Positions 9,030 to 25,180 of a stretch of 64,000 nt of DNA are shown piece after piece. Position 1 is the stretch's first letter, and every line of letters begins with the position of its first letter. The translations under genes were made by a program, and so were the position numbers. Below the pieces are notes generated by a model. The model did no database searches. It was not told where the DNA came from and was given only the letters and a program-made list of their open reading frames with translations. Location of the stretch: the NCBI GenBank assembly GCA_002256425.1, contig NKIZ01000001.1, forward strand, positions 992,001 to 1,056,000, written 5' to 3'. This DNA is from Alphaproteobacteria bacterium PA2 (GTDB lineage Bacteria > Pseudomonadota > Alphaproteobacteria > Caulobacterales > Caulobacteraceae).

Positions 9030-11981
9030 ATGAATAAGACGCGTGAACGCCTTCTGGCGACGTCTGTCCTGACCGGTCTGGCGATGTTCGCCGTGATGCC
9101 GGCTACCGCTTTTGCAGCCGAAAAGGGCTCCGCTGAAGTCGAAGAAGTCATTGTTACCGGCTCGCGCATCGCCCGCCAGGACTATCGCTCCAACACCCCG
9201 ATCGTGACGGTTGGTGCTGAAGCCCTGAAGAATTCCGGCGTGGTGACGGTCGAAACCCTTCTGAACGAACTGCCCCAGTTCGTTCCGTCCGTGACCTCCA
9301 CCTCCAACAACCCCGGTGGTAACGGCCAGGCGCAAGTCGAACTGCGCGGCCTCGGCACCAACCGCACCCTGGTCCTGATGGATGGCCGCCGCATCCCGCC
9401 GTCCAACTCTGACGGCACGGTCGACCTGAACACCATTCCTCCGGGTCTGGTTGAGAGCGTCGAAGTCGTGACCGGCGGTGAATCCTCCACCTACGGTTCG
9501 GACGCCATCGCCGGCGTCGTCAACTTCCGCCTGAAGAAGCATTTCAACGGCATTGAAGTCGACACCCAGTACGGCATCACCAACCGCCACGACGGCGAGT
9601 CCGAAAACGTCAGCATCCTGATGGGCGGCGACTTCAATGAAGGCGCCGGCAATGCCGTGATGTCGCTGGGCTTCTCCAACCGCGGCAACGTGCTGAACGG
9701 CTCCCGTCCGTTCTCGGCCGTGTCTGGCCCGTCCTCGACGACGCCAATGGGCGCCTATGACACCATCGCCACCAACGCCCCGACCCAGGCCGCCATGGAC
9801 GCGGTCTTCGCGAAGTACGGCAAGGCCGCTGGTTCGGTCAGCCGCACCACCACCCGTCTCGGTTTCAACAATGACGGAAGCCTGTTCCAGAACGGCATCA
9901 ACTATAAGGGCCCGACCGGCGTCGACTTCGACACCATTCCGGTCACCGGCAACTACAACACCGGCGCCCTGAACAACCTGGTTGTGCCGCTTGAGCGTTA
10001 CAACGCCTTCGCACGGGTCGAGCATGACCTGCTCGACACCATGAAGGCCTACGCCCAGTTCAACTATGTCAGCTACCAGTCCGGCGCCCTTCTGGCTCCG
10101 TCTCCGGCAGCCGGCAACCCGGCGACCGGCAATACCGGCTTCCTGGTCCCCTACAACAACCCCTTCGTCCCGGGTGACCTGCAGACCCTGCTGGCCTCCC
10201 GTGCGAACCCGACCGCGCCCTTCCTGTTCCGGAAGCGCTTCTCGGAAGTCGGCGGCCGTCGTTCGGTCAGCGACTACACCGTCACCCAGATGTTGATTGG
10301 CGTGAGGGGCAAGATTGCCGGTGACTGGACCTGGGACGCCTACATGGCTGATGGCCGTGAGCGTCGTCTGGAAACCCAGTACGGCAACATCTCCCACGCG
10401 GCAGTCCGCACCCTGCTGGAAGCTGCTGATGGCGGTAAGTCCATCTGCGCCGGCGGTTACAACCCCTTCGGCACCAATCCGATCTCGGCCGCTTGCGCCA
10501 CCTACATCAGCCGGGTGACCAAGAACTCGACCAGCTTCAACCAGCGTCTGGCCGAAATCAGCGCCACGGGTTCGCTGTTTGAGCTTCCGGCTGGCGTCAT
10601 GAAGGCCGCCGTCGGCGCCGACTACATCCGCAACGCCTATAACTTCGTTCCGGACTCGGTCCTCTCGACCCGCGACACCGTGACCACGCCGATCGCCCAG
10701 GACTCACCGGGCGTCGTGGGCTTCAACGCCCAGAACGCCCTGCGCGGTTCAACCGACGTCTATGAAATCTTCGGCGAAGTGGACGTTCCTGTCCTGAAGG
10801 ACCTGCCGCTGATCCAGTCGGCAAGCCTGAACCTGAAGTACCGCTATTCGGACTACAACACGATTGGCGGCGTCTCGACCTTCAGCGCCAATGGCCACTG
10901 GCAGATTGTGGACGCCCTGGCGGCCCGCGGCGGCTTCTCCAAGGCCATCCGCGCCCCGAGCGTTGGCGAACTCTACGCCCCGCAGGGCCAGAGCTTCCCG
11001 ACCATCGGTCCGGCAGGCGGCGTCGGCTCCGGCGACCCCTGCGATGTCAAGGGCGCCTATCGCAAGGGCGCCAATGCGGCGGCCGTGCGGGCCCTGTGCC
11101 TGGCTCAAGGCGTGCCGTCGGTCATCATCGACAGCTTCACCTATGCCAACAACCAGGTTCAATCGACCACCGGCGGCAATCCCGACCTGATCCAGGAAAC
11201 GGCTGACTCCGTGACCTTCGGTCTGGTCTATCAGCCGCGCTTCGAGGCTCCGATCCTCGAGCGTCTGTCGGCTTCGGTGGACTACTACCACATCAAGATC
11301 CAGGACGCGGTCGGCACCATCAACGCCGCCACCTCCCTGGCCTATTGCTTCAACAACCCGCTGGGCACGGCTTCGAACCCGACTTTCTCGGCTTCGAACC
11401 TGTTCTGTCAGCTGCTGCGCCGCGACCCGGCGACTGGTGAAATTTCTGACGCCAAGTCGACCAACGCCAACCTCGGCTCCTATGAAACCGACGGCATCGA
11501 CTTCCAGATCGACTGGGGCTTCGGTCTTGGCGCCATCGGTCTCAGCGATGACTACGGCCGCATTGCGACCAATGTCTCGGGTAGCTACCTGCTGAACTTC
11601 GATGTCCAGAACATCCCCGGCGGTAACATCGACAAGCGCGCCGGCACCGTTGGTAACACCCTTGGCTCCAACTACAGCCGCTGGAAGGCGATGACCAACG
11701 TCCGTTGGTCGGTCGCAGACTACTCCTTCGGCGCGCGCTGGCGTCTGATTGGCAAGGTCGATGACTTCTTTGCCAGTGGTCAGGCTGCGCCGAACTACAG
11801 CTATTACGACATCGACGGCAGCTGGAAGATCAACGACATGTTCGAAGTCCGCGCGGGCGTGAACAATATCGGCGACAAGCTGCCTCCGATCTACACCTCG
11901 CAGATCGCAGCCAACACCGACCCGTCGACCTATGACGTGCTGGGTCGTCGTTACTTCGTGGGTCTGAAGGCCCGCTTCTAG
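9030..11981 (+). CDS. TonB-dependent outer-membrane receptor
   Basis: A 983-residue receptor: signal peptide (1-33), then a TonB-box-like segment 'EEVIVTGSRIARQDYRSNTP', a plug domain with 'RGLGTNRTLVLMDGRRIPP' and 'YGSDAIAGVVNFRLKK', and a 22-strand barrel ending in the C-terminal Phe of 'YFVGLKARF'. It imports a substrate too large or scarce for porins. The length and the plug type without a CarboxypepD domain resemble receptors thought to take up carbohydrates or aromatic compounds. Cysteine pairs in the barrel loops are common in this group. The ATG at 9030 is preferred. A TTG at 9024 has better spacing to the GGAGG at 9011-9015. A strong terminator follows. Confidence 0.95.
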   Translation: MNKTRERLLATSVLTGLAMFAVMPATAFAAEKGSAEVEEVIVTGSRIARQDYRSNTPIVTVGAEALKNSGVVTVETLLNELPQFVPSVTSTSNNPGGNGQAQVELRGLGTNRTLVLMDGRRIPPSNSDGTVDLNTIPPGLVESVEVVTGGESSTYGSDAIAGVVNFRLKKHFNGIEVDTQYGITNRHDGESENVSILMGGDFNEGAGNAVMSLGFSNRGNVLNGSRPFSAVSGPSSTTPMGAYDTIATNAPTQAAMDAVFAKYGKAAGSVSRTTTRLGFNNDGSLFQNGINYKGPTGVDFDTIPVTGNYNTGALNNLVVPLERYNAFARVEHDLLDTMKAYAQFNYVSYQSGALLAPSPAAGNPATGNTGFLVPYNNPFVPGDLQTLLASRANPTAPFLFRKRFSEVGGRRSVSDYTVTQMLIGVRGKIAGDWTWDAYMADGRERRLETQYGNISHAAVRTLLEAADGGKSICAGGYNPFGTNPISAACATYISRVTKNSTSFNQRLAEISATGSLFELPAGVMKAAVGADYIRNAYNFVPDSVLSTRDTVTTPIAQDSPGVVGFNAQNALRGSTDVYEIFGEVDVPVLKDLPLIQSASLNLKYRYSDYNTIGGVSTFSANGHWQIVDALAARGGFSKAIRAPSVGELYAPQGQSFPTIGPAGGVGSGDPCDVKGAYRKGANAAAVRALCLAQGVPSVIIDSFTYANNQVQSTTGGNPDLIQETADSVTFGLVYQPRFEAPILERLSASVDYYHIKIQDAVGTINAATSLAYCFNNPLGTASNPTFSASNLFCQLLRRDPATGEISDAKSTNANLGSYETDGIDFQIDWGFGLGAIGLSDDYGRIATNVSGSYLLNFDVQNIPGGNIDKRAGTVGNTLGSNYSRWKAMTNVRWSVADYSFGARWRLIGKVDDFFASGQAAPNYSYYDIDGSWKINDMFEVRAGVNNIGDKLPPIYTSQIAANTDPSTYDVLGRRYFVGLKARF

Positions 11982-12085: not shown

Positions 12086-13582
12086 CTAGGTGGGGACCAC
12101 GTCAAAGGCCATGGTCAGGCGCCGGTCATCTGTCTGGAACGGTATGACCCCATGCCAGGCATAGGATGGAAACAGCACCAGTCGTCCGGGCCGGGGCTCG
12201 ACATGCATCACCGCCGGGCAGGGTGGGTTCAAGGCCAGGGGCGGCTCGCCAATGGCCAGCCAGCCCTGCCGGTCCGGAGCGCCCGCTGACACGGCTGGTG
12301 TCGCCACATAGAAGACCGAGGAGATCCAGCCCTCGATGTGCATGTGGGGGGCGTGCGATCCGCCCTGGCGCAGCAGGACCGACCAGGCGCCCTGAAACTT
12401 CCAGTCCCTGGTCTTGCGCATCCTCAGGGGATCGCCGCCTGGGGGCAGGTCCTTCAGGAATGTGTTGATTGCGGTGGTGAACAGGTCGAAGGCGGCCTTG
12501 ATGGCGCGATCATCGGACCCCTTCAGGAAGTGCGATAGCTGACTACCCCCGCGGACGCTCTGGTTGGCGGGCTCCCGCTGATACTTGTGCTGAGCCGTCA
12601 GGGCCTGATCCAGGTCGGCCAGAAACGCTGCCATGTCCGGCCATCCCGGCGGCGTCTCGAAGTCGAAGACCCGGACCAGGGCGTCATAGGCGCAGATCTG
12701 GTCATACAGGGGATCCCCGATCTGGCGCGCGGCGACAGAGGCCCAGGCCCAAAGGGACTGGTTGTTCGGCGCAGCCTCCAGTCCCTTGCGAGCCCTGGCC
12801 AGTGCGTCCTGGGGCCGACCCAGGGCCAGGTCTACAATAGCGGCCTGGTTTAACACCGCCGGCGAAGCGGGCGCATGGCCCAGCGCCTGGCGGATCAATA
12901 TGTCGGCGTCGCCCAGCTTCTTGCCCTCTACTGCGGCCTGAGCCGCAGCAAGCAGGGTCTGGACATTGTCCGGCGCCATCCGCAGGGCCTGGATCAGCAG
13001 ATCCCAGGCAAGGTCGGCCCGTCCCGCAGTCCGCGCCAGGTCGGCCCGGCCCAACAGGATCGGAACCGGCTGGGCGCCTGCTTTGGCGATCTCCAGCAGC
13101 ACGGCGTCAGCCTGGGTCAGATCGCCGGTGCGCATCCAGACCAGATTGGCCGCCTCAATGCCCCAGGCCACTTCCCCTGGGCGCCTGCGGATCAATCGAA
13201 GGTAGGCCTGCTCTCCCTCATCCAGGCGGCCGGCCGCAACCAGGGCGCGGGCATAGACCAGCCAGGTTTCCGGAGCATCCAGGCCCAGTTCAAAGGCCGT
13301 CTCGGCTGCCCGCACCGCTTCGTCAGCCTTCCCCAGGTCGCCCAGGGTGGCCGCCAGATTGTGCCAGCCGATCCGCCCCATAGGAAAACGGCGGACGGCT
13401 TCCCGGTCAATCGGCAGGGCTTCATCCCGCCGCCCCATGGCCTTCAGGGCCGAGGCATGCAGGGCGAAGGCGCGAGGGTCGGCGTCCGCCCGACGAATGA
13501 GGGACCTGGTGACGGCCAGGGCGTCCTTAGCCTTCCCTGCAGCCAGAAGGCCCGCCGCCCTGTCCAGGTCCGCCTTGCTCAT
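12086..13582 (-). CDS. TPR protein with C-terminal 2OG-Fe(II) oxygenase domain
   Basis: Starting at the ATG at 13582 the protein has 498 residues. Residues 1-300 are a run of tetratricopeptide-like helices ('ALHASALKAMGRRDEALPID', 'LVYARALVAAGRLDEGEQAY'). Residues 380-498 carry a putative 2-oxoglutarate/Fe(II) oxygenase: 'HAPHMHIEGWISSVFYV' supplies an H-x-H metal motif, 'LVLFPSYAWHGVIPF' the distal His, and 'RRLTMAFDV' the oxoglutarate-binding Arg. Such TPR-oxygenases occur near TonB receptors in Caulobacterales and sphingomonads. The substrate is unknown; a peptide or protein is plausible because of the TPR part. It is divergent from a second oxygenase across 91 bp. Confidence 0.85.
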   Translation of the reverse strand: MSKADLDRAAGLLAAGKAKDALAVTRSLIRRADADPRAFALHASALKAMGRRDEALPIDREAVRRFPMGRIGWHNLAATLGDLGKADEAVRAAETAFELGLDAPETWLVYARALVAAGRLDEGEQAYLRLIRRRPGEVAWGIEAANLVWMRTGDLTQADAVLLEIAKAGAQPVPILLGRADLARTAGRADLAWDLLIQALRMAPDNVQTLLAAAQAAVEGKKLGDADILIRQALGHAPASPAVLNQAAIVDLALGRPQDALARARKGLEAAPNNQSLWAWASVAARQIGDPLYDQICAYDALVRVFDFETPPGWPDMAAFLADLDQALTAQHKYQREPANQSVRGGSQLSHFLKGSDDRAIKAAFDLFTTAINTFLKDLPPGGDPLRMRKTRDWKFQGAWSVLLRQGGSHAPHMHIEGWISSVFYVATPAVSAGAPDRQGWLAIGEPPLALNPPCPAVMHVEPRPGRLVLFPSYAWHGVIPFQTDDRRLTMAFDVVPT

Positions 13583-13673
13583 GGTCGTGATTTGGCGCCA
13601 ATAGTCATGGAGGATTTGTCGCGCCAAACACCTTCGCAGGCAATGCGGACCATGCCCAAAGTTCAGGGACACA

Positions 13674-14423
13674 ATGACTGAGCCGTCGCCCTTCTGGAGG
13701 CCTCTGGATGAGGACGCCCTGACGCGGCGATTCCAGGAGACAGGCCGCCTCCATATCCCGGACTTTCTCAAGCCGGATCTGGCCGGGGCGCTGCATGAGG
13801 TCCTTGCAGCGGACATGAGCTGGGCCAGGACCTTCACGGTCAATGGCAAGAGCTATGACATCGATCTGGCGGCGCAGGCCCAGACGCCGGACGCCGTTCT
13901 TTCCCAGGTCGCAGAGGCTGTCGCCGAGGGTGGTCGCACGGGATTTGCCTATGACTTCGAACTCTGGCGGATCAGCGATGAAGTTGAAGCCGGTCGCAGG
14001 CCGACTGACTCCCGGTCACAGCTTGCAGACCTTTATGCCCTGCTCAACAGCGAGGTCTTTCTCGCGCTCATGCGTCGGCTGACCGGCCTGGAGTCAGCCG
14101 CTTACTGCGATGCCCAGGCCACCCGCTATCGCGCCGGACACTTCCTCACCGCCCATGATGATGAGGTGGAAGGCAAGAACCGGCTGTGCGCCATGGTGCT
14201 GGGTCTGACGCCGGTATGGCGGACAGAGTGGGGCGGCCTCCTGTTGTTCCATGACCGTGCGGGTCACGTGCTGGAAGGATATACGCCCAGCTTCAACGCC
14301 CTGAACCTGTTCCGTGTTCCGCAGCTCCACAGCGTCAGCCAGGTGGCCGGTTTTGTTACCGCTGACCGGCTCTCGGTCACGGGTTGGGTCCGTTCAAGCC
14401 GTCCGGAGGGCGACCTGGCCTAG
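13674..14423 (+). CDS. 2OG-Fe(II) oxygenase, prolyl-hydroxylase-like
   Basis: A 249-residue single-domain dioxygenase. The metal triad can be read as His161 and Asp163 in 'TAHDDEVEG' and His219 in 'VPQLHSVSQV'; Arg in 'DRLSVTGWVR' should bind 2-oxoglutarate. 'WRTEWGGLLLFHD' is the typical strand before the core. It resembles the 2OG-FeII_Oxy_3 group, which hydroxylates prolines or small molecules. Divergent from the TPR-oxygenase, it makes a receptor plus two oxygenases unit. Its last bases overlap the small convergent gene by 4. Confidence 0.87.
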   Translation: MTEPSPFWRPLDEDALTRRFQETGRLHIPDFLKPDLAGALHEVLAADMSWARTFTVNGKSYDIDLAAQAQTPDAVLSQVAEAVAEGGRTGFAYDFELWRISDEVEAGRRPTDSRSQLADLYALLNSEVFLALMRRLTGLESAAYCDAQATRYRAGHFLTAHDDEVEGKNRLCAMVLGLTPVWRTEWGGLLLFHDRAGHVLEGYTPSFNALNLFRVPQLHSVSQVAGFVTADRLSVTGWVRSSRPEGDLA

Positions 14424-14668: not shown

Positions 14669-14929
14669 GGCGGGGTCCTTCACTGGTGCCTGAGGGAGTA
14701 CGGCGTCCACACCATTTTGGTTACATTGGGTTTCAATCTTGTTTCGGCTTTTGAAATTCAGCGCACGGTCACCCTTGCCGCCCCGTTAGCCATAGGCCAA
14801 GGTCACTTCGCGCGGATGTTCTTTGGGGGAACGATGCGCCGATGGAGATCGGTCCGTTTTGACCTCTCTGTTGAGTGTCACAGTCTCTGATTGTGTTAAT
14901 GGTGCGCCGTGGGGCAGGGTCAGACGAGC

Positions 14930-16642
14930 ATGGCGGGGCAAGGAGCCAGGTTCAGGCTCAGCTTATTGGGAAGCTTCGGGCTTTACGATCCTTCGGGAGC
15001 ACGGGTCGAGATCCCGAGTCGGAAGTCTGTCGCCTTGCTGGGTCTGCTGGCGACGAGCCGGGACGGCGCGAGATCGCGTACCTTCCTGCAGGACATGCTC
15101 TGGGGTTCGCGCAGTCCCGAGCAGGCTCAGGCCAGCCTTCGCCGGGAACTTTCAAACCTGAGGCAATGGGTGAACAAGCCGGGCGCGGACCTTGTCCTGA
15201 CCCAGCACAGTCGGGTGAGCCTGGCCCTGGACGCCCTGGACATAGACATCCTGAATCTCGACCAGCTTGCGGCGTCTCTCCCCAAGGATGCGGCGTTTCT
15301 GGAGGGTGTGGATCTTCACGCCGAGGATGCCTTCGAGGACTGGCTGCGTGACCAGCGCGCCCAGTACCGCGAGGCCATCGCCAATGCAAAGTCCTCGCCG
15401 CCCAGGGGTGTCGCCGAGGCTCCAAGGTCCGATGAAGGCTTCTTCGGGCGGCCCTTCCTTGCGGTCCTGCCCTTCGCCAACCTCACCGACAACCCCTCCA
15501 ATACCTATCTCGCGGAGGGCCTGGCGGAGGAGTTGATTGAACACCTGTCCCGGCTCCGGTGGATTCCGATCATCTCCAGGGCGGCCAGCTTCGCCTATTC
15601 CACAAACAACTCGACCCTTGCTGAAATCGGCGAGGCCCTTGGGGCCCGTTATGTGGTGGAAGGACGCCTGCGGTCGCAGGGCGCTTCCCTGAACCTGACC
15701 ACAAGTATTTCTGAGGCAGTCAACGGGCAGGCGATCTGGACCTGGCGGACTGACCTTCCGGCTGAACTGTCCTCGGAGGACCTGGAGCGGGTCCTCACCG
15801 CCATTGTCGGCGCCCTTTCAAGCTCCGTCGATGATGCGGAAATGACCCGGGCCGTCGCACGCCCGGAGAGCAATCCCCAGGTGACAAACCTCATCTGGCG
15901 CGCCCGTTGGCACCACAACCGCTATACCCCTGAAGACGGCGAAATCGCGGGTCGACTGCTCAACGAAGCCCTCGCCCTGGCGCCCAACTCGCCCGAGGCC
16001 ATTCTGCAGCTGGCCTTCTTCCGGCAGCGTCAGCTGTGGTTGGCGCGGGCCGATCGGACCGAAGTCATAGAACTGCGGCGTCTCGCTCAACGCGCCATTT
16101 CGGCGGACTATCTGGATGGCCGCGGCTACATGATCGCCGGCATAGCCGAGCTGTGGCTGAAGCATACCTCGGCGGCCGTAGGCCTGTTGAAACAGGCCAT
16201 CTCGCTCAATCCCAGTCTGGCCTATGCCTATTCCCAGCTGGGGGCGGCCTATTATCTGAGTGGTGATCCGGAGCAGGCTGTCGGCATGCTCTCAGAAGCC
16301 CTGCGGCTCAATATGGGCGAGGAGTATTCCTATTACCTGCTCGGCGAGCTGGCCATGTGTCACGCCATGCTCGGATCCTGGGACGCAGCCATCGATCTGG
16401 CCGAGAAGTCCTTGCTGCGACGCCCGGCCTACTGGTATGCCCACATCTCTAAAGTGCGTGCGCTAATTGGTCGCGGGGAGCGGGAGTCCGCGGCGATTGC
16501 CCTGGCTGCGCTGAAAGAGTCAAATCCGAGGTTCAAGCTCAAGCATCTGGATTGGGTGCCATTCGTAGATCAGTCATGGCCGGACCAATTGAAGCTGATC
16601 CTGGGTGAGATCGACGTAACGCTGGTGACGCCTTCTCCTTGA
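14930..16642 (+). CDS. SARP-like winged-helix regulator with TolB-like and TPR domains
   Basis: The 570-residue protein has three parts. Residues 5-95 look like the OmpR/SARP winged helix ('FRLSLLGSFGLYDPSGARV', 'SRKSVALLGLLATSRD', 'ASLRRELSNLRQWV'). Residues 180-310 carry the TolB/CadC-type block 'LAVLPFANLTDNPSNTYLAE' and 'GARYVVEGRLRSQG'. The C-terminal 250 residues are TPR repeats ('LAYAYSQLGAAYYLSGDPEQ'). Similar proteins are one-component regulators or signalling scaffolds. I see no membrane segment. The ATG at 14930 follows an AGGG by about 10 bases. The P450-DyP gene begins 47 bp downstream on the same strand, so this is the likely regulator of that gene. Confidence 0.85.
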   Translation: MAGQGARFRLSLLGSFGLYDPSGARVEIPSRKSVALLGLLATSRDGARSRTFLQDMLWGSRSPEQAQASLRRELSNLRQWVNKPGADLVLTQHSRVSLALDALDIDILNLDQLAASLPKDAAFLEGVDLHAEDAFEDWLRDQRAQYREAIANAKSSPPRGVAEAPRSDEGFFGRPFLAVLPFANLTDNPSNTYLAEGLAEELIEHLSRLRWIPIISRAASFAYSTNNSTLAEIGEALGARYVVEGRLRSQGASLNLTTSISEAVNGQAIWTWRTDLPAELSSEDLERVLTAIVGALSSSVDDAEMTRAVARPESNPQVTNLIWRARWHHNRYTPEDGEIAGRLLNEALALAPNSPEAILQLAFFRQRQLWLARADRTEVIELRRLAQRAISADYLDGRGYMIAGIAELWLKHTSAAVGLLKQAISLNPSLAYAYSQLGAAYYLSGDPEQAVGMLSEALRLNMGEEYSYYLLGELAMCHAMLGSWDAAIDLAEKSLLRRPAYWYAHISKVRALIGRGERESAAIALAALKESNPRFKLKHLDWVPFVDQSWPDQLKLILGEIDVTLVTPSP

Positions 16643-16689: not shown

Positions 16690-19600
16690 GTGGGGAAGAC
16701 TTTGGTTGCGAAATACTATGCAGGTATCCAATCTGCACAAGGTCAGGATCAATACCTGCCTGATGAGGCCTTCCCTGATTTTGATTTTGAACGCATGGCG
16801 CCAAAAGGCGTCTTCAACCAGTTCAAGTCTGACCTGATCCGCAAGGGTATCCCTCTGGTCGTTGCTGTCGGACGGCGTATCTCGCCGGTCCTGAAGATTG
16901 ACGGCATGTACTGGATCACACGCAAGGAGGATGTCCGCCAGGCCCTCGACAATCCGGATTTCCTGGAAGTGCCCTACGGCCCGGAAATGAAGGAGCTGTC
17001 CCATAGCGCAGACGGCAAGGCGGCGACCTTTGTCCTGGGACTTGAGGGGCCAGATCAGGCCCGACAGAATGCCATCATCAGACGGATTGTCCTGCGCGAG
17101 GACCTGGACCTCGCCCGACGCCAGAGCCGCGCCTTTTCAGAGTCGCTTCTGGATGGGGCGGCCGGTCGTATCGACGTCATCACGGACTTCATCTTCCGCG
17201 TGCCGACCGAGATCTGCCGCCGCTATTTCGGGTTGGAGTTTCCCAATCCCAACCGGTTCGCCGAGTGGTCTGTCGCGGTGTCCGCACTGCTCTTCGCCGA
17301 CCCGACCGGAGACCCCATCAAGCGCCAGCTGGCGCGGGCGGGCGCCTTGCGTTTGTCCCGGATCATCGACGTGGCCATCGACAAGGCCGACGATGAGATA
17401 GGGCAGGCGCCTTCGTCTGGCGAAACGCCCTTCAATGAGCTGACCCTGGTTCAGCGACTGGTCTGGCTGAGGAAGCGGGAGCCCGCTCTGGGTCTGGAGC
17501 GCGAGGAAATCCGGGCGATTATTCTGGGTCTGGTGGTGGGCTTCATCCCGACCAACGGGCTTGGCGCCGCCAACATGCTTGAGGAGGTCCTTGGCCGTTC
17601 CTCCACCACCCGGGACGCCCGCCTCGCGGCGAAGGCGCAGGATGACGGGACCCGGATGCGGGACCTGCTTCTCGAGGCCGGGCGGCGCAATCCCGCCCTT
17701 GCCCCTGGCCAGTGGCGGTATGCCCGCAAGGCGACCGTCGTCGGCAAGGGCAAATGGTACCAGAAGACCATTCCCCAGGGCGCCACGGTCATGGTCTCGA
17801 CCATGTCAGCCCTGGCGGACCGACCCTCCAGCCCCCGCAAGCCCGAGGACTTCGAACTGATCTTCGGCCACGGGGTTCACCAGTGCCTGGGCCAGCACCT
17901 GGCCATGGCCATCATCACCGAGATGTTCCTCGCCCTCTTCGCCCGGGACGGTCTGCTGCCTGCTCCCGACGGAACCGGCGCCCTGCGCAGGGTGGGCTAT
18001 TTTCCGCGGTCCATGGACATGGTCTATGCCAGTGCGCGCAGCACCCAGGACATGATCCAGGTCTGCATCCCGATCACGGCTGACCTCAAACGCAGCGATA
18101 TCGAGACCCGGCTCAAGGCTCTGGGCAACCCTGCCCGACCTGACATTGCCAGCAGCCTTGCGGCTGCCGGAATTGTCCATTTCGCCTCGGCGTCGGTTTG
18201 GGGTGAGGGTGGTGAACCGCCCCTGACCCTGCTGCTGGAATTCAATGTGGACGGTACCCGCGCTTCAGCCTTCCCGATCCTTGCGCGACATGTGGATGTC
18301 TGGCTGCAGCCCTTGCTTCAATGGCTGCGTCCAGGGGACGGGCGATCGATCGAGGATGTCCTCCGGGCCCATACGCTACAGCTGCATACCGGGCCCTGGG
18401 GCGCCACGGGCATCAACTTCATGGGTTCGCAGGAGCGCAGTGTCGCCGGAACGGCTGACCAGCAGCGGTTGAGGGCGGCGGCTGAGGCGGCCCTTGATCG
18501 ACTGGGCGACAGGTTTGGCGCCAGGCCCCTGGAAGTGCTCGCCGCGGTGCGCGCCCATCTCCGGACCGATCCGGCGAATCTGGCCCTCGACGCCCTGACG
18601 GTTCAGCCCAGTCGGGGCGATCTGGCCATTTCCACCTGGCGCAAGCCCAGGACCTTCTGGGAGCCCTTGCCCAAGGTCCTGCAGGGCGGGCTTGGCCTTC
18701 AGCTGGTGACAGGATTTCTTGCAAGTTTCATCCTGGTCGCAGGCGTGCTCCATTTTGCCCTGGGGGCAGGGACCGGATCTGGCGCCCTGGCCCACTGGGC
18801 CGTCGTCACTGTCCTGGGCCTCGTCTTGACCGCTTCACTCTGGGCCGGGACAGCCTTCGCCGCCTACCGGATCTTCCTTGCTGAAGAGGACAGGGAAGAA
18901 CCCGATGATCAGGCGCCTGATCCGGAGAGGGTCAAGACGATCATCGCCCGGGAAAATGCACCGGGCTACCAGCAGAACCACATCATAGCCGTTACGCCCC
19001 TGAAGCGGGGCCTGATCCGGCGGTTCGCCTTCGCCTTCGCCATGTGGGGCATAGCCCAGAGCCTGATCTGGTTCCGACCGGGTTTTGTCCTGACCATGGG
19101 GACCATCCACTTCGCCAAATGGTTCCGCATGCCGGGCAGCCGGACCATGGTCTTCCAGTCCAATTATGATGGAAGCTGGGAAAGTTATCTCGAGGACTTC
19201 ATCACCCGCGCCCACGCCGGCCAGACCGCGGCCTGGAGCAATGGCGTAGGCTTCCCCAGGTCCAAGGGCCTGATCGGAGACGGCGCCGCCGACGGTGAGC
19301 GCTTCAAGCGCTGGGTGCGTCGCCAGCAGATCCCGACGGACTTCTGGTATTGCCGGTTCCCCGAACTCACCGGCGACGTCATGCGGGCCAACATGCTGAT
19401 CCAGCGGGGCCTGGCCTCGGCCTATGACGACACTGCGGCGCGTTCCTGGCTGGATCTGTTTGGTTCAGGCCAGTCACAGGTCGGAGAAATCGAGGCGCCG
19501 GAGGTTCAGTCCCTGCTGTTCCGCGGCATGCGCCGGGCCATCTTCAGCGCCTGCATTCCCTTCACCCTGCCGGCCGATCCGGCAAGGCGCGGCGCCTGGC

Positions 19601-21072
19601 TGCAATCAATCCAGTCGCAGATTTCCTATGGAAAGTTCCCCGACAAGGACAAGGCCCTGTTCATGGCCCTGTCGGCCAAGGGCCTCAAGGCCTTCGACAC
19701 CGCCTTCGGTCCGCCCATCCACCTGCTGAAGGAGTTTCCCGAGGCTTTCGTTCACGGCATGGTCAGTCGCGGGCCCATTCTCGGCGACGCTGCGCCGGCT
19801 GATCCAGCAGAGCCTTGGCTCTGGGCGGATGGCGTGTCGGAGGGTCTGAAGTCGGAGCTGGTCTGCGACGGGGTGCTGATGACCTATGCGGCGTCGCCTG
19901 AGGCCCTCGACAGCCAGATCGCCGAGCTCATGGCAGGCCTTAGCCAGGCGGATGGCAACTGTGTCCATACGCCGATCAGGACGGTTACCCTCGACGAGAA
20001 GGGCGATGTCGTCACCCTGGACAGTCCCAATGCCAATGGACCCAGCACCGGCTACGAGCACTTCGGATTTCGGGATGGCATTTCAGGTCCGACCCTCAAG
20101 GGCGTGTCGCCCTCCGCGCCGGCTTCGGATGATCTGGGCGTGGTCGAGCCCGGGGAATTCATCTTCGGCTATCCCAACAACCAGGGCCACATGCCCCCCT
20201 GCCTCAAGACGCCTGCGGAAAGCGATGTGGGCGGTAATCTGCCTGTCCCCAGCGATACCCGGGCCTTCGGCTATCCGGACATCAATCTGCCGGCCCTGCA
20301 GGGCGAGTTCCGCGACTTCGGCCGCAATGGCGCCTTCCTGGTCATCCGCCAGCTGGAGCAGGACGCCGCAGGCTTCGCCACCATGACCGCTGAGAAGGCG
20401 CAGGACCTGAATGCAAGGGTCGGTGAGGCGAAGCTTTCGCAGATTGTCGGCGACAAGGTGACCGACGAGTGGGTGGCTGCAAAGTTGATGGGGCGGTGGC
20501 GCGACGGTCGCCCCCTGATCGGCAACCCGACCTACGCCGTCACCCGGTCATCTGACGAAGCCGCCAATGACTTCCTCTATGGCCGGGATGATCCCCAGGG
20601 GCATGCCTGTCCCATGGGCGCCCATATCCGCCGGGCCAATCCCCGGGACAGTTTGACTCCCAATGATCCCATGGAGCAGGTCATCACCCGGCGGCACGCC
20701 CTCATGCGACGGGGCAGGACCTATTTCTATGACGAGGCCACCGGGACCTACCCAACTGACAAGCCGGCCGCGAAGGCGAAGAAGGGCCTGCTGTTCGTCG
20801 CCCTGTGTGTGGACCTCGAGCGGCAGTTCGAAATGATGCAGCAGACCTGGCTGGGCTTTCCGTCCTTCCACAGCCTGGTCAATGAGGTCGATCCCATCGC
20901 CACCCGGTCAGGCCGACAGCTGGCGGAGCGCAACTTCACCATTCCTACGGCCGCCGGACCCCTGACCCTGCGCAACATGCAGAGCTTCATCACCATGAAG
21001 GGCGGCGGCTACTTCTTCCTGCCCAGCAGGTCGGCAGTGGCCTATTTGCGCGATCTCTGCCGGATCAGGTAG
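16690..21072 (+). CDS. Cytochrome P450 - membrane linker - DyP-type peroxidase fusion (1460 aa)
   Basis: One open frame encodes several recognisable modules. Residues 1-440 are a P450: ExxR is Glu329-Arg332, and the heme loop 'FGHGVHQCLGQHLA' gives Cys399 as ligand. The I-helix reads 'GFIPTNGLGAAN' (284 on) instead of the usual (A/G)GxxT. Residues 495-523 contain 'IVHFA' and 'EFNVDG'. Two membrane helices lie near 672-694 and 703-727. Residues 805-830 contain 'TIHFAKWF' and 'FQSNYDGSWESYL', resembling the first block. Residues 1050-1460 are a DyP peroxidase with 'FGFRDGISGP' (Asp1129) and 'CPMGAHIRRANPR' (proximal His1312). No redox partner gene is nearby, so use of a peroxide or an internal peroxidase-P450 relay is plausible but inferred. 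The start is GTG behind AAGG. Confidence 0.9.
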   Translation: MGKTLVAKYYAGIQSAQGQDQYLPDEAFPDFDFERMAPKGVFNQFKSDLIRKGIPLVVAVGRRISPVLKIDGMYWITRKEDVRQALDNPDFLEVPYGPEMKELSHSADGKAATFVLGLEGPDQARQNAIIRRIVLREDLDLARRQSRAFSESLLDGAAGRIDVITDFIFRVPTEICRRYFGLEFPNPNRFAEWSVAVSALLFADPTGDPIKRQLARAGALRLSRIIDVAIDKADDEIGQAPSSGETPFNELTLVQRLVWLRKREPALGLEREEIRAIILGLVVGFIPTNGLGAANMLEEVLGRSSTTRDARLAAKAQDDGTRMRDLLLEAGRRNPALAPGQWRYARKATVVGKGKWYQKTIPQGATVMVSTMSALADRPSSPRKPEDFELIFGHGVHQCLGQHLAMAIITEMFLALFARDGLLPAPDGTGALRRVGYFPRSMDMVYASARSTQDMIQVCIPITADLKRSDIETRLKALGNPARPDIASSLAAAGIVHFASASVWGEGGEPPLTLLLEFNVDGTRASAFPILARHVDVWLQPLLQWLRPGDGRSIEDVLRAHTLQLHTGPWGATGINFMGSQERSVAGTADQQRLRAAAEAALDRLGDRFGARPLEVLAAVRAHLRTDPANLALDALTVQPSRGDLAISTWRKPRTFWEPLPKVLQGGLGLQLVTGFLASFILVAGVLHFALGAGTGSGALAHWAVVTVLGLVLTASLWAGTAFAAYRIFLAEEDREEPDDQAPDPERVKTIIARENAPGYQQNHIIAVTPLKRGLIRRFAFAFAMWGIAQSLIWFRPGFVLTMGTIHFAKWFRMPGSRTMVFQSNYDGSWESYLEDFITRAHAGQTAAWSNGVGFPRSKGLIGDGAADGERFKRWVRRQQIPTDFWYCRFPELTGDVMRANMLIQRGLASAYDDTAARSWLDLFGSGQSQVGEIEAPEVQSLLFRGMRRAIFSACIPFTLPADPARRGAWLQSIQSQISYGKFPDKDKALFMALSAKGLKAFDTAFGPPIHLLKEFPEAFVHGMVSRGPILGDAAPADPAEPWLWADGVSEGLKSELVCDGVLMTYAASPEALDSQIAELMAGLSQADGNCVHTPIRTVTLDEKGDVVTLDSPNANGPSTGYEHFGFRDGISGPTLKGVSPSAPASDDLGVVEPGEFIFGYPNNQGHMPPCLKTPAESDVGGNLPVPSDTRAFGYPDINLPALQGEFRDFGRNGAFLVIRQLEQDAAGFATMTAEKAQDLNARVGEAKLSQIVGDKVTDEWVAAKLMGRWRDGRPLIGNPTYAVTRSSDEAANDFLYGRDDPQGHACPMGAHIRRANPRDSLTPNDPMEQVITRRHALMRRGRTYFYDEATGTYPTDKPAAKAKKGLLFVALCVDLERQFEMMQQTWLGFPSFHSLVNEVDPIATRSGRQLAERNFTIPTAAGPLTLRNMQSFITMKGGGYFFLPSRSAVAYLRDLCRIR

Positions 21073-21932
21073 GGAACCGCGCTTGCCGGGCCGTCTGTGC
21101 GATCTGACAGTTCCAGCCACATATCGTGGGCGGCGGCAGGGGGGATCCAGAGGCTGTGGCTTCCGCAGGCCGGGGCCGTCACGACTTCCACGTGATTGGC
21201 CGTGAGCACAGCGCGGGCCGCCTGCAGATCCCGCACCGCCACCGTCAGGCCGATGATCGACCGTTCAGGCGCGCGTGATACGCCCCGCGCGACGAGGACC
21301 TGTTCACCTTCCATGGACAGCCGGAACACAGCAGCCTTCCGGTCAAAGGGCGAACAGCGGCTGAGCCCGGCTGGCCTGACGCCGAGGGTTGAAAGAAGTG
21401 TGAGGTCCGGGGCGTTTCCGGAAAGCCATACGCCTGCAAGCCGGTAGGCCGTGTTGGGATGGTTCCAGTAGATGGGGCCGTCCGTCGGCGACCTTTGGCG
21501 ACTTCCGAAAAACAGCCGACTGGCGGCAGGGCCTTGCTGGACCGTAACCACGCCGCCCTCATTTTCAGCCTTGAGCCCTTGCCCCTTGAGGATGGCGGTC
21601 AGCCCTTGCAGGTCTGGGCTGAACAGGCTCCAGAAGGCCGGACCATCCCCACCCTTAAGCCATTCGGCGTATTCCCTTGCAAGGTCGTCGCCGGGGTTTG
21701 AGGCCGTGATCAGTTCAATCCCGCCGCCATTGGGGAACTTTACATGGCGGTTCCCGAGCCCGTTGGTGTGGGGCCGTCCGGGCTTGAGAACAAAGCCGAG
21801 CCTGCCGAAGTCCGCCGCAGCCTGGTCCAGGTCAGCCACCGCCACCGGTACATGGTCCAGGCCCTGGACTGTAGGCCCCGCGACCGAGGTCGTCGCTGTG
21901 CTCATTGCCAGAACTGCAAGGATGGCGATCAT
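21042..21932 (-). CDS. Exported VOC/glyoxalase-like protein
   Basis: A 296-residue product with an N-terminal signal-like segment ('MIAILAVLAMSTATTSVAG') followed by a VOC fold of Glyoxalase_3 type: 'GLDHVPVAVADLDQAAADFG', 'FPNGGGIELITASNPGDD' and a second half-module 'IIGLTVAVRDLQAARAVL'. His and Glu in these blocks are candidates for the metal site. The reaction is unknown; VOC proteins include dioxygenases, isomerases and resistance proteins. It lies 27 bp downstream of the monooxygenase gene on the same strand and overlaps the 3' end of the P450-DyP gene by 31 bases. Confidence 0.82.
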   Translation of the reverse strand: MIAILAVLAMSTATTSVAGPTVQGLDHVPVAVADLDQAAADFGRLGFVLKPGRPHTNGLGNRHVKFPNGGGIELITASNPGDDLAREYAEWLKGGDGPAFWSLFSPDLQGLTAILKGQGLKAENEGGVVTVQQGPAASRLFFGSRQRSPTDGPIYWNHPNTAYRLAGVWLSGNAPDLTLLSTLGVRPAGLSRCSPFDRKAAVFRLSMEGEQVLVARGVSRAPERSIIGLTVAVRDLQAARAVLTANHVEVVTAPACGSHSLWIPPAAAHDMWLELSDRTDGPASAVPYLIRQRSRK

Positions 21933-21959: not shown

Positions 21960-23774
21960 CTAGCTTATGTCCAGGCCCTCGAACCGGCCATTGTTCCGCC
22001 AGTCTTCGATGTAACGGAAATAGGCTGTGGCGCCGGCGGGATAGCCCACGGCGTATTTGGCGGCGGGGCCTGGGTCCTGGCCTTCATTGTTGTAATAGCC
22101 GGGGGTGCAGTCCGGGGCGCCTAGCATGCGGCCAGGCCCGCTGATCAGCAGCTCCACCCAGGCGTCCTGGGCCTCCTGGGTGACTTCCACAGTCTTCGCC
22201 CCCACGGCCTCGGCGTGCTTGACGATGGTGGCGATGGTCAGGCCGGAGTCCGTCAGATTGTGCGGCACATTGGAGATCAGGTTTGCACCCTGGGTCGGCT
22301 GGACGATGAAGGCATTGGGGAAGCCGTGGATGTGCAGGCCATGCTTTGTCCGCATGCCCTCCGCCCAGGCTTCCGACAGCTTCAGGCCATTGCGTCCGGT
22401 CAGGTCGAAGCCCGCCCGCCGCTTATGCTCTGTCCCGACCTCGAAGCCCGACGCGTAGATGATGCAGTCGACCTCATATTCCTGGCCGGCGACCACAAAG
22501 CCTTTTTCGGTGATCTTCTCGACGCCCTGGCCGTCCGTGTCGATCAGGTGGGTAGAGGGGGTGTTGAAGGCCTGAAGATAGGTGTCGTGGAAGCAGGGGC
22601 GCTTGCAGAGCTGGCGATACCAGGCCTTCAGCTTCTGCGCCGTCTCATGGTCGCCGACGATCTGGTCCACCCGTGACCGGATCTCCTCCATCTTTTCGAA
22701 GTCGGAGTCCTCATAGGCCGCCAGCATGTTCCGGGGCGTCATTTCGCTGGGCGGCAGCTGCATGATCTTGCTGCGTATGCGGCGGGAGAGATCGGTCCAG
22801 CCGTCCTGGACGAGGTCCTCCTCGGCCAGGTTGCCGCCAGCCTGGTTGGCGGTGAAGTTTTCCAGCCAGCGCTTCTGCCAGCCCGGGGTGGCGATGGTCG
22901 AGAACCATTCCGGATCGATGGGAACATTGGCCCTGACGTCGATGGACGAGGGTGTCCGCTGGACCACGTAGAGGGTCCCGCAGGCCTTGGCCAAGTGGGG
23001 CACGGCCTGGACCGAAGTCGCGCCAGTGCCGATGATCGCGACCCGCTTGCCGGCCAGGTTGGCCATCAGGCCACCCTTGGGATCGCCCCCCGTATAGGCG
23101 TAGTCCCAGCGGCTGGTGTGGAAGGAATGGCCCTTGAAGTCCTCAATGCCCGGAATGCCCGGCAGTTTGGGAACGTGAAGGGGGCCAGTGCCCATGCCCA
23201 GATAGTCAGCGGTGAACCGGTCGCCCCGGTCGGTTTCGATCACCCAGCATTTGCCGGCGTCGTCCCAGGTGAGGTCCTTCACCTGGGTGTGGAACAGGGC
23301 GTTGTCGTAGAGGTCGAACTGCTTGCCGATCCTCTGGCACTGCTCGAGGATTTCCGGGGCGTGGGCGTATTTCTCGGTTGGCATGTGCCCCGTCTCTTCG
23401 AGCAGGGGCATGTAGATCATCGAGGCCGTATCGCACTGGGCGCCGGGATATCGGTTCCAGTACCAGGTCCCGCCGAAGTCGCCGCCCTTCTCGATGATCC
23501 GGACGTCAGTGATCCCGGCTTCCTTCAGCCGGGCGCCTGTGACCAGGCCGGCAAAGCCGCCGCCGATGAAGGCGAACTTCACATGGTCGGTCTTCGGTTC
23601 GCGTTCGACCCGGGGGGTGTAGGGGTCTTCCAGATAGTGGGAAAGGCGGCCCTTCAGTTCCAGATACTGGTTGTTGCCGTCTGCCCGAAGTCGCTTGTCA
23701 CGCTCGGCAATATACCTGGCCAGCAGGGCCTGCTTATCGATCGGCGGCTTTGGGGCTGAAGTGGTCTGGGTCAT
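21960..23774 (-). CDS. Flavin monooxygenase of Baeyer-Villiger type
   Basis: A 604-residue two-dinucleotide-domain flavoprotein. The FAD loop is 'FIGGGFAGLVTGARLKEAG', followed by 'EKGGDFGGTWYWNRYPGAQC', characteristic of cyclohexanone-monooxygenase relatives. The BVMO fingerprint region reads 'KGHSFHTSRWDY', with Asp where the consensus has Pro. The NADPH loop is 'RVAIIGTGATSVQAVPHLAK'. It would insert oxygen into a cyclic or linear ketone using NADPH and O2 in the cytoplasm. It appears co-transcribed with the VOC gene and points towards the P450-DyP gene, suggesting a group of oxidative enzymes on one hydrophobic substrate, which is an inference. Confidence 0.92.
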   Translation of the reverse strand: MTQTTSAPKPPIDKQALLARYIAERDKRLRADGNNQYLELKGRLSHYLEDPYTPRVEREPKTDHVKFAFIGGGFAGLVTGARLKEAGITDVRIIEKGGDFGGTWYWNRYPGAQCDTASMIYMPLLEETGHMPTEKYAHAPEILEQCQRIGKQFDLYDNALFHTQVKDLTWDDAGKCWVIETDRGDRFTADYLGMGTGPLHVPKLPGIPGIEDFKGHSFHTSRWDYAYTGGDPKGGLMANLAGKRVAIIGTGATSVQAVPHLAKACGTLYVVQRTPSSIDVRANVPIDPEWFSTIATPGWQKRWLENFTANQAGGNLAEEDLVQDGWTDLSRRIRSKIMQLPPSEMTPRNMLAAYEDSDFEKMEEIRSRVDQIVGDHETAQKLKAWYRQLCKRPCFHDTYLQAFNTPSTHLIDTDGQGVEKITEKGFVVAGQEYEVDCIIYASGFEVGTEHKRRAGFDLTGRNGLKLSEAWAEGMRTKHGLHIHGFPNAFIVQPTQGANLISNVPHNLTDSGLTIATIVKHAEAVGAKTVEVTQEAQDAWVELLISGPGRMLGAPDCTPGYYNNEGQDPGPAAKYAVGYPAGATAYFRYIEDWRNNGRFEGLDIS

Positions 23775-24720: not shown

Positions 24721-25062
24721 CTAGCTTCCCTTGCCAGGCTTCTCGCTGAAGTACTTCTCGAACTTGCCGGTTTCACGCTCGAAGTCGGTCCGGTCTTCCG
24801 GGGGTTCGCCCTTGACCGTGATGTTGGGCCAGACCTTGGCGTAGTCGGAATTGATGCGCAGCCACTTACCGTCCGCCTCATCTTCCGTGTCAGGCTTGAT
24901 TGCGTCCACCGGGCATTCCGGCTCGCAGACGCCGCAGTCAATGCACTCATCGGGATTGATGACGAGGAAGTTTTCGCCTTCGTAGAAGCAGTCCACGGGA
25001 CACACCTCCACGCAGTCCATGAACTTACATTTGATGCAGGCGTCCATGACGATGTAGGTCAT
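24721..25062 (-). CDS. fdxA: 7Fe-8S/4Fe-4S ferredoxin FdxA
   Basis: A 113-residue ferredoxin. '[17 protein letters not shown]' and '[14 protein letters not shown]' provide ligands for a 3Fe-4S and a 4Fe-4S cluster, as in the Azotobacter FdI/FdxA group, and the C-terminus has the long charged tail '[13 protein letters not shown]'. It carries electrons in the cytoplasm. The ATG at 25062 starts '[13 protein letters not shown]', the normal family N-terminus. A candidate electron donor for the nearby P450 module would be of interest, but nothing in the sequence ties them together. Confidence 0.96.
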
Positions 25063-25180
25063 CGCGGCGTCCTCAGCCAATTCCAATCCGGGCGCGGTTT
25101 TTCGGGGTCAGGGCTGCAGTTGTCAATGCTGCGGTGCAAGGTTTGGTCCCAGCTTATCTGTAAGCCCTGATAGGTCCGCG

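Follow-up and report, generated by a model that had tools for sequence, protein, structure and literature searches.

A single-chain bacterial fusion of a cytochrome P450, two predicted membrane helices and a DyP-type peroxidase

Introduction

Enzymes that carry a peroxide-handling heme domain and a cytochrome P450 on one chain have been described in fungi and oomycetes. The available sections of two reports (PMC4486971, PMC9579011) cover the fungal dioxygenase-P450 fusions, which are the Ppo/linoleate diol synthases (CYP6001-6005), and the oomycete CYP5619, in which the P450 comes first; a review of the heme peroxidase superfamily mentions, in its available sections, a P450 fusion for the linoleate diol synthases only (PMC4420034). 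Here we analyse a bacterial gene in which a P450 is joined through two predicted membrane helices to a DyP-type peroxidase. It lies in a 64,000-nucleotide stretch of Alphaproteobacteria bacterium PA2 (contig NKIZ01000001.1, positions 992,001 to 1,056,000), hereafter the window.

The bacterial fusion shares its P450-first arrangement with CYP5619 and differs from the fungal and oomycete proteins in its second domain, which in those proteins, as the same sections describe them, is an animal-type heme dioxygenase/peroxidase and here is a DyP. It also differs in having two helices and two further modules (M1 and M2) between the heme domains, and in a P450 that is nearest to ordinary bacterial P450s. 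No peroxidase family other than DyP is found in the fused protein (Pfam, E values up to 1), and because the second heme domain is a DyP and not a cyclooxygenase-like dioxygenase the protein falls outside the fungal oxylipin synthases. An earlier note on this DNA had offered those synthases as an analogy with another peroxidase type and the reverse domain order. The analogy is fair on both counts, and the fungal and oomycete fusions are the closest functional parallels, but since CYP5619 already places the P450 first the domain order by itself is no novelty. Full-text searches of one open-access library found no paper that deals with a P450-DyP fusion, and within that library the family is, as far as we have seen, undescribed in print; public records name the fusions 'cytochrome P450' or 'Dyp-type peroxidase domain-containing protein'.

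One reading frame joins the two heme enzymes

The fused gene and its parts are laid out in the window as follows.

16690..21072, plus strand: fused gene P450-M1-membrane helices-M2-DyP, GTG start, 1460 amino acids
16690..18054, plus strand: cytochrome P450 module, residues 1-455 (PDB profile match, E 4e-36)
17539..17556, plus strand: I-helix GFIPTN, residues 284-289; Pro287 replaces the usual Asp/Glu, Thr288 is kept
17674-17676, 17683-17685 and 17884-17886, plus strand: P450 key codons Glu329, Arg332 and Cys399 (alignment of fusions)
18121..18693, plus strand: module M1, residues 478-668, unnamed; predicted ferredoxin-like (AlphaFold)
18703..18858, plus strand: two predicted membrane helices, residues ~672-723 (hydropathy)
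18967..19494, plus strand: module M2, residues 760-935, motif SNYDGSWESYLEDF, unnamed (alignment); predicted ferredoxin-like (AlphaFold)
19495..21057, plus strand: DyP-type peroxidase module, residues 936-1456 (NCBIfam, PDB, Foldseek, alignment)
20074-20076, 20623-20625 and 20692-20694, plus strand: DyP key codons Asp1129, His1312 and Arg1335 (alignment of fusions)

The frame runs through 1460 codons with zero internal stops, and the source genome, a single contig of 3,471,236 bases, contains one full-length match to the fused protein. An alignment of four fusions was scanned against 84,980 genomes and gave 235 relatives, the best 80 of which were retained. P450, M1, M2 and DyP lie within a single open reading frame (ORF) in 76 of these 80 loci; the other four comprise two that start at a contig end (L106, L115), one split in frame (L109) and one from Microvirga (L096) in which the P450 ORF stops one codon ahead of a following ORF that shares its frame. 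Mesorhizobium is abundant among the 80 loci, and the other hosts include Sphingomonas, Qipengyuania, Sphingopyxis, Reyranella, Bradyrhizobium, Rhodopseudomonas, Nitratireductor and Hyphomicrobiaceae. The fusion also occurs on three plasmid records (Novosphingobium aromaticivorans, Sulfitobacter pontiacus and Pararhizobium qamdonense), in a genome from another class of the phylum (L215) and, in the same single frame, in a relative of 80% identity. Occurrence is patchy: a one-ORF fusion is found in 3 of 35 genomes of the same genus (G1089, G1105, G1110), and in a further one (G1082) the pieces of the fusion lie on two contigs.

Pfam recognises both halves weakly, as might be expected had an assembly error or chance joining brought two genes together. 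The earlier note had named such an error, or close relatives that always keep P450 and DyP as separate genes, as grounds for dismissing the fusion. No such error was found, and the close relatives are themselves fused; given the 76 single-frame loci, the plasmid records, the second class and the 80%-identical relative, an artefact is exceedingly improbable and was rejected. The fused ORF is thus confirmed as real.

Both heme sites are conserved

Residues were compared across 80 aligned fusions, made up of the window protein, 76 loci and the three plasmids. The claim that two different heme enzymes with intact key residues share one chain is borne out in this set. In the P450 half the heme-thiolate loop FGHGVHQCLG (FxxGxHxCxG-like) has Cys399 and His397 in 80/80 sequences, and the K-helix ExxR has Glu329 in 79/80 and Arg332 in 80/80. 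In the DyP half Asp1129 of the GxxDG motif, His1312 and Arg1335 are each present in 80/80, Arg1335 being, judged by its spacing, likely the distal Arg. Both halves are therefore under selection as heme sites, and we infer that both may be active.

The Pfam match of the P450 part is weak (E 0.18). Against PDB sequences the single sequence finds 5ysm (E 1e-10) and a 24-sequence profile finds 665 sequences at E ≤0.001, with CYP113A1 (2jjn, E 4e-36) best, the nearest solved P450s being ordinary bacterial ones. In the DyP part NCBIfam TIGR01413 matches with E 2.4e-20 and 73 bits, under its cut-off of 100.5, and Pfam recognition is again weak. The best PDB sequence match is the DyP of Deinococcus radiodurans (8re3, E 1.2e-26), which also comes first in a Foldseek search (E 2e-22, template modelling score 0.79 on the target) with an AlphaFold model of residues 471-1460 built from 53 sequences (predicted local distance difference test, pLDDT, 81.9; predicted template modelling score 0.71). 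All of the best 50 of 335 Foldseek matches are DyPs, and none of these 50 was assigned to M1 or M2. The long (C/D, 'V') DyPs, of which 8re3 is an example, are thus the best match in both sequence and fold, with the Asp, the proximal His and the later Arg in common; those compared stand alone, whereas the fused DyP comes after M2 and a membrane anchor.

That anchor, a membrane-helix pair between P450 and DyP already proposed in the earlier note, corresponds to hydrophobic segments at ~672-690 and ~699-723, and exactly two such segments are present in the linker of 70/80 fusions. Modules M1 (~478-668) and M2 (~760-935), which flank the helices and were absent from that note, are predicted to share a fold. 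Profile comparison of the two is weak (probability 2.1%, E 0.023), so the idea of a duplication was set aside and only the same predicted fold, not homology, is claimed. M2 carries the strong motif and has no good match in Pfam, NCBIfam or PDB sequences (best PDB E 0.43); M1 has no match in NCBIfam, the sole library searched with it alone. Two helices in mid-chain would place the P450 and DyP ends on the same side of the membrane, and because no signal peptide is seen in the fused protein that side is probably the cytoplasm.

The oxygen-activation site of the P450 is altered

An acid-Thr pair in the I-helix is usual among O2-using P450s, although not strictly defining. The fusions instead carry Pro-Thr within GF[VI]PT (Pro287 80/80, Thr288 80/80). 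The acid is also replaced in 14 of 16 separate P450s encoded beside DyP genes (12 Pro, 1 Ala, 1 Gly) and is present in 20 of 25 other P450s (Fisher P 2.8e-5 with kinship ignored; two genes enter the 25 twice, L012/L128 and L013/L130, alongside other near copies). CYP152 P450s carry Arg-Pro at the acid-Thr position, a pair that differs from the Pro-Thr of all 80 fusions. Peroxygenase P450s of the CYP152 family (OleT, with Arg245, and P450-BS-beta) have no acid-alcohol pair according to the available sections of PMC10988616, and the fusion P450, itself without the acid, is likened to them by the I-helix pair only. An initial reading in which the Pro took the place of the Thr, the CYP152 pattern, was rejected when alignment with intermediates put it at the acid position with the Thr present; membership of CYP221 was dropped, as nothing tied that family to the fused protein.

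No flavin, NAD, Fe-S or reductase family is found in the fused protein (Pfam and NCBIfam, E up to 1), which, having no reductase domain in the chain, is not of the self-sufficient P450-reductase type (CYP102, CYP116, CYP505). In two genomes (G304, G470) the DyP-linked P450 is the sole PF00067 match. On the P450 tree 26 fused and 16 DyP-linked sequences fall into one clade with support of 100 (Shimodaira-Hasegawa-like approximate likelihood-ratio test, SH-aLRT). The clade also takes in two P450s with no DyP seen nearby (four rows, each gene entered twice), and the other 21 rows fall outside it; this tree and that of the DyPs come from quick searches with SH-aLRT support only. One of these clade members directly follows a RoxA-like cytochrome c protein (L128:7341-9341 and 9467-10699, plus strand). 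RoxA-like proteins include oxygenases, so the pair would fit hydroperoxide chemistry.

Unfused relatives pair M2 and DyP with an exchangeable heme partner

Separate M2 and DyP genes adjoin each other in Alphaproteobacteria, Acinetobacter and Granulicella. Across 41 M2/DyP loci the third gene is a P450 in 16 (one fused like the window protein and one in reverse order, L126), catalase-like in 11, both in none and neither in 14, with one of the last (L135) holding a gene annotated as a catalase family peroxidase. Skermanella rosea (L034) is an example with a stand-alone P450, and L132 one with a catalase-like partner. The P450 count of L117-L130 is biased because these loci were retrieved with a query that contained P450. 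Among 19 unfused loci found with the M2 profile alone, seven have a P450, seven a catalase-like gene, none both and five neither, three of the five (L187, L197, L199) lying on short contigs. Two later loci agree (L216 neither, L217 catalase-like), and outside the counts there are five long, fused-looking M2 ORFs of 1410-1542 amino acids. The DyP tree requires three or more switches of partner type. In L193 and L196 P450, M2 and DyP genes follow one another on one strand in the order of the fusion. All 13 catalase-like rows share an Arg column and a Tyr column, but a pattern search finds the distal-His motif in only four of them.

In L191 a single ORF carries DyP (31-494) followed by a catalase-like region (573-900) that Pfam does not name as catalase. 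This ORF may be compared with the coral fusion of a catalase-related allene oxide synthase and a lipoxygenase, likewise, in the available parts of its description, a hydroperoxide-converting hemoprotein joined to a second oxidative enzyme; the coral protein has lipoxygenase and no P450, and the bacterial system, known here from genes alone, has DyP.

Several other arrangements were seen among these relatives. The reverse-order fusion (L126:710-3733, minus strand) is a 1007-amino-acid protein with DyP before P450, in which Pfam DyP_N, Dyp_perox_C and p450 all score above cut-off. Huge DyP-containing ORFs of 1309 and 1202 amino acids (L125:7685-11614, minus strand; L129:8926-12534, plus strand), in which the sequence outside DyP is unassigned, lie beside nucleotide-cyclase-like ORFs. 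On Rhizobium plasmids an M1-M2-DyP protein without P450 (L035:7152-10115) lies beside endonuclease, CHAT and Exo_endo_phos genes. A GMC oxidoreductase gene (L189:9581-11326, minus strand) stands beside an M2-DyP-catalase-like set, some GMC enzymes being producers of H2O2, and katG is found near the Granulicella M2-DyP pair.

Genes for lipid-active enzymes occur beside unfused genes: patatin (L124, L126, L192), LCAT (L122) and a Tle1-like phospholipase (L120). A phosphoesterase lies ~2.7 kb off in L195, and Exo_endo_phos genes adjoin DyP in L118 and L035. Patatin has 127 matches in 28 genomes and is adjacent at four loci from three genera, against a rough expectation of 0.35 (Poisson tail ~0.005 for three and 0.0004 for four, run with 0.33).

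A regulator gene is linked to the fusion

Upstream of the fused gene lies a conserved gene of which the earlier note made no mention.

14909..16642, plus strand: upstream regulator with a weak winged-helix match and TPR repeats (Pfam); its stop lies 47 nucleotides before the fused gene

The winged-helix match is under cut-off (Pfam E 0.0047). A homologue lies directly upstream at 78 of 86 loci searched, or 78 of the 79 with room to show it; the eight loci without one are three unfused (L034, L035, L036), four at contig ends (L090, L106, L110, L115) and L055. In Pararhizobium (L033) a nucleotide-cyclase domain takes the place of the winged helix (Pfam E 2.3e-10). Downstream in L033 lies a gene annotated Crp/Fnr; related genes occur at 13 of 36 representative loci, and every other cluster of neighbours occurs in at most five of the 36.

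Proposed mechanism and alternatives

We tentatively propose a membrane-bound, peroxide-driven two-heme enzyme that would act on an amphiphile, perhaps on lipid hydroperoxides. It gives the simplest account of the altered O2 site, the lack of a reductase domain, the peroxidase partner, the membrane anchor and the catalase-like exchange. An inner-membrane anchor would keep both catalytic heme sites on a single side of the membrane. With no reductase, the P450 half would use peroxide (H2O2 or an organic hydroperoxide) as a peroxygenase or hydroperoxide isomerase, and the DyP half would spend peroxide on the substrate of the P450 or on a sister one. Two peroxide-dependent steps would in this way be kept together at the membrane, with expression set by the linked regulator. 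The least certain step is the substrate, for which an acyl chain or acyl hydroperoxide seems likeliest. To our knowledge DyPs do not make fatty acid hydroperoxides, and the DyP may therefore reduce or activate a hydroperoxide instead of forming one.

The earlier note had raised a peroxidase-to-P450 relay, which is hypothetical, or peroxide-driven chemistry at the membrane. The replaced acid and the catalase-like partners found in the P450's stead lend indirect support to peroxide-driven P450 chemistry. To judge from relatives with separate genes, the halves may cooperate in peroxide chemistry, possibly on lipids. According to the available sections of PMC5617202, the hemoproteins for which conversion of fatty acid hydroperoxides is known are of two types, CYP74 P450s and catalase-related proteins, a precedent by which the P450/catalase-like exchange points to hydroperoxides. 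Lipids are favoured as the putative substrate by the neighbours of distant relatives only.

A number of observations weigh against the proposal. The architecture, its conservation, both heme sites, the replaced I-helix acid and the linked regulator are evident from the sequences; the chemistry is what we infer from them. The phospholipase links come from distant separate-gene relatives, patatin neighbours are only slightly in excess (in 4 of 28 genomes, of which two belong to one genus), and no phospholipase-type neighbour of the fusions is found among the gene clusters of the 36 representative loci. Neither partner is present at 14 of the 41 M2/DyP loci, and the catalase assignment of several partners is remote (L184, L189 and L191 are without a Pfam match). 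Thr288 is retained in the fusions; functional P450s without the acid exist, and 5 of the 25 ordinary P450s compared here are without it too. Single-sequence structure prediction of the P450 half reached a pLDDT of 36, too low to place the two heme domains relative to each other. The window genome has nine further PF00067 matches, so redox partners may well exist.

Those nine matches would also suit a rather unlikely alternative, in which free ferredoxins feed an ordinary monooxygenase that hydroxylates a membrane-near substrate and the DyP only clears leaked H2O2. The conserved Thr288 and heme-thiolate site, the ordinary bacterial enzymes among which the closest solved P450s fall, and a putative ferredoxin-like ORF recognised by its CxxC motifs (window 24721-25086) are consistent with such an arrangement. 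It sits poorly with the replacement of the acid in every fusion, with the lack of any conserved electron-transfer neighbour in the listed gene clusters of the 36 representative loci, and with the catalase-like gene that stands in for the P450 in sister systems, which a guard role for DyP does not predict. An oxidative-stress or redox-sensing system, in which the P450 binds a ligand, the membrane-bound DyP detoxifies or senses (organic) peroxides and the regulator reads the signal, would account for the upstream regulator, the nucleotide-cyclase domain in L033, the Crp/Fnr-annotated downstream gene, the catalase-like partners and the katG of the Granulicella locus; we regard it as decidedly unlikely, the fully conserved catalytic signature of the P450 (Cys, ExxR) exceeding what ligand binding needs. 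DyPs oxidise aromatics, and a catabolic or tailoring oxidase whose two domains both act on aromatics, terpenoids or sterols would suit hosts such as Novosphingobium aromaticivorans, Sphingomonas and Reyranella and a flavin monooxygenase-like gene at window 21960-23774. The fusions have no recurrent catabolic neighbour, as the low counts beyond the regulator and Crp/Fnr-like genes indicate, and this function too is quite improbable.

An extension of the two-heme proposal, itself unlikely, is a bacterial counterpart of the oxylipin synthases in which a DyP and a P450 or, interchangeably, a catalase-related partner, joined through the M1/M2 membrane modules, would perform two coupled heme steps on membrane acyl chains or hydroperoxides, with the product or peroxide state read as a signal by the cyclase/winged-helix TPR regulator. 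If the peroxide-driven two-heme enzyme is real, bacteria would have evolved heme-peroxidase-plus-P450 enzymes independently, using a peroxidase of unrelated type; DyP, for the most part still without a clear physiological role, would gain a defined biochemical partner; and the P450 would be a candidate for one with no need of a reductase. The recurring M2-DyP pair with its exchangeable second heme enzyme provides a way into the functions of numerous genes now listed as 'hypothetical'.

Neighbouring genes in the window

A glyoxalase-like gene (21042-21932, minus strand) meets the fused gene tail to tail, its 3' end overlapping the end of the latter by 31 nucleotides. Further upstream two 2-oxoglutarate-Fe(II) oxygenase-type genes (12086-13849, minus strand; 13674-14423, plus strand), one of them with TPR repeats, overlap on opposite strands, and a TonB-receptor-like ORF adjoins this pair.

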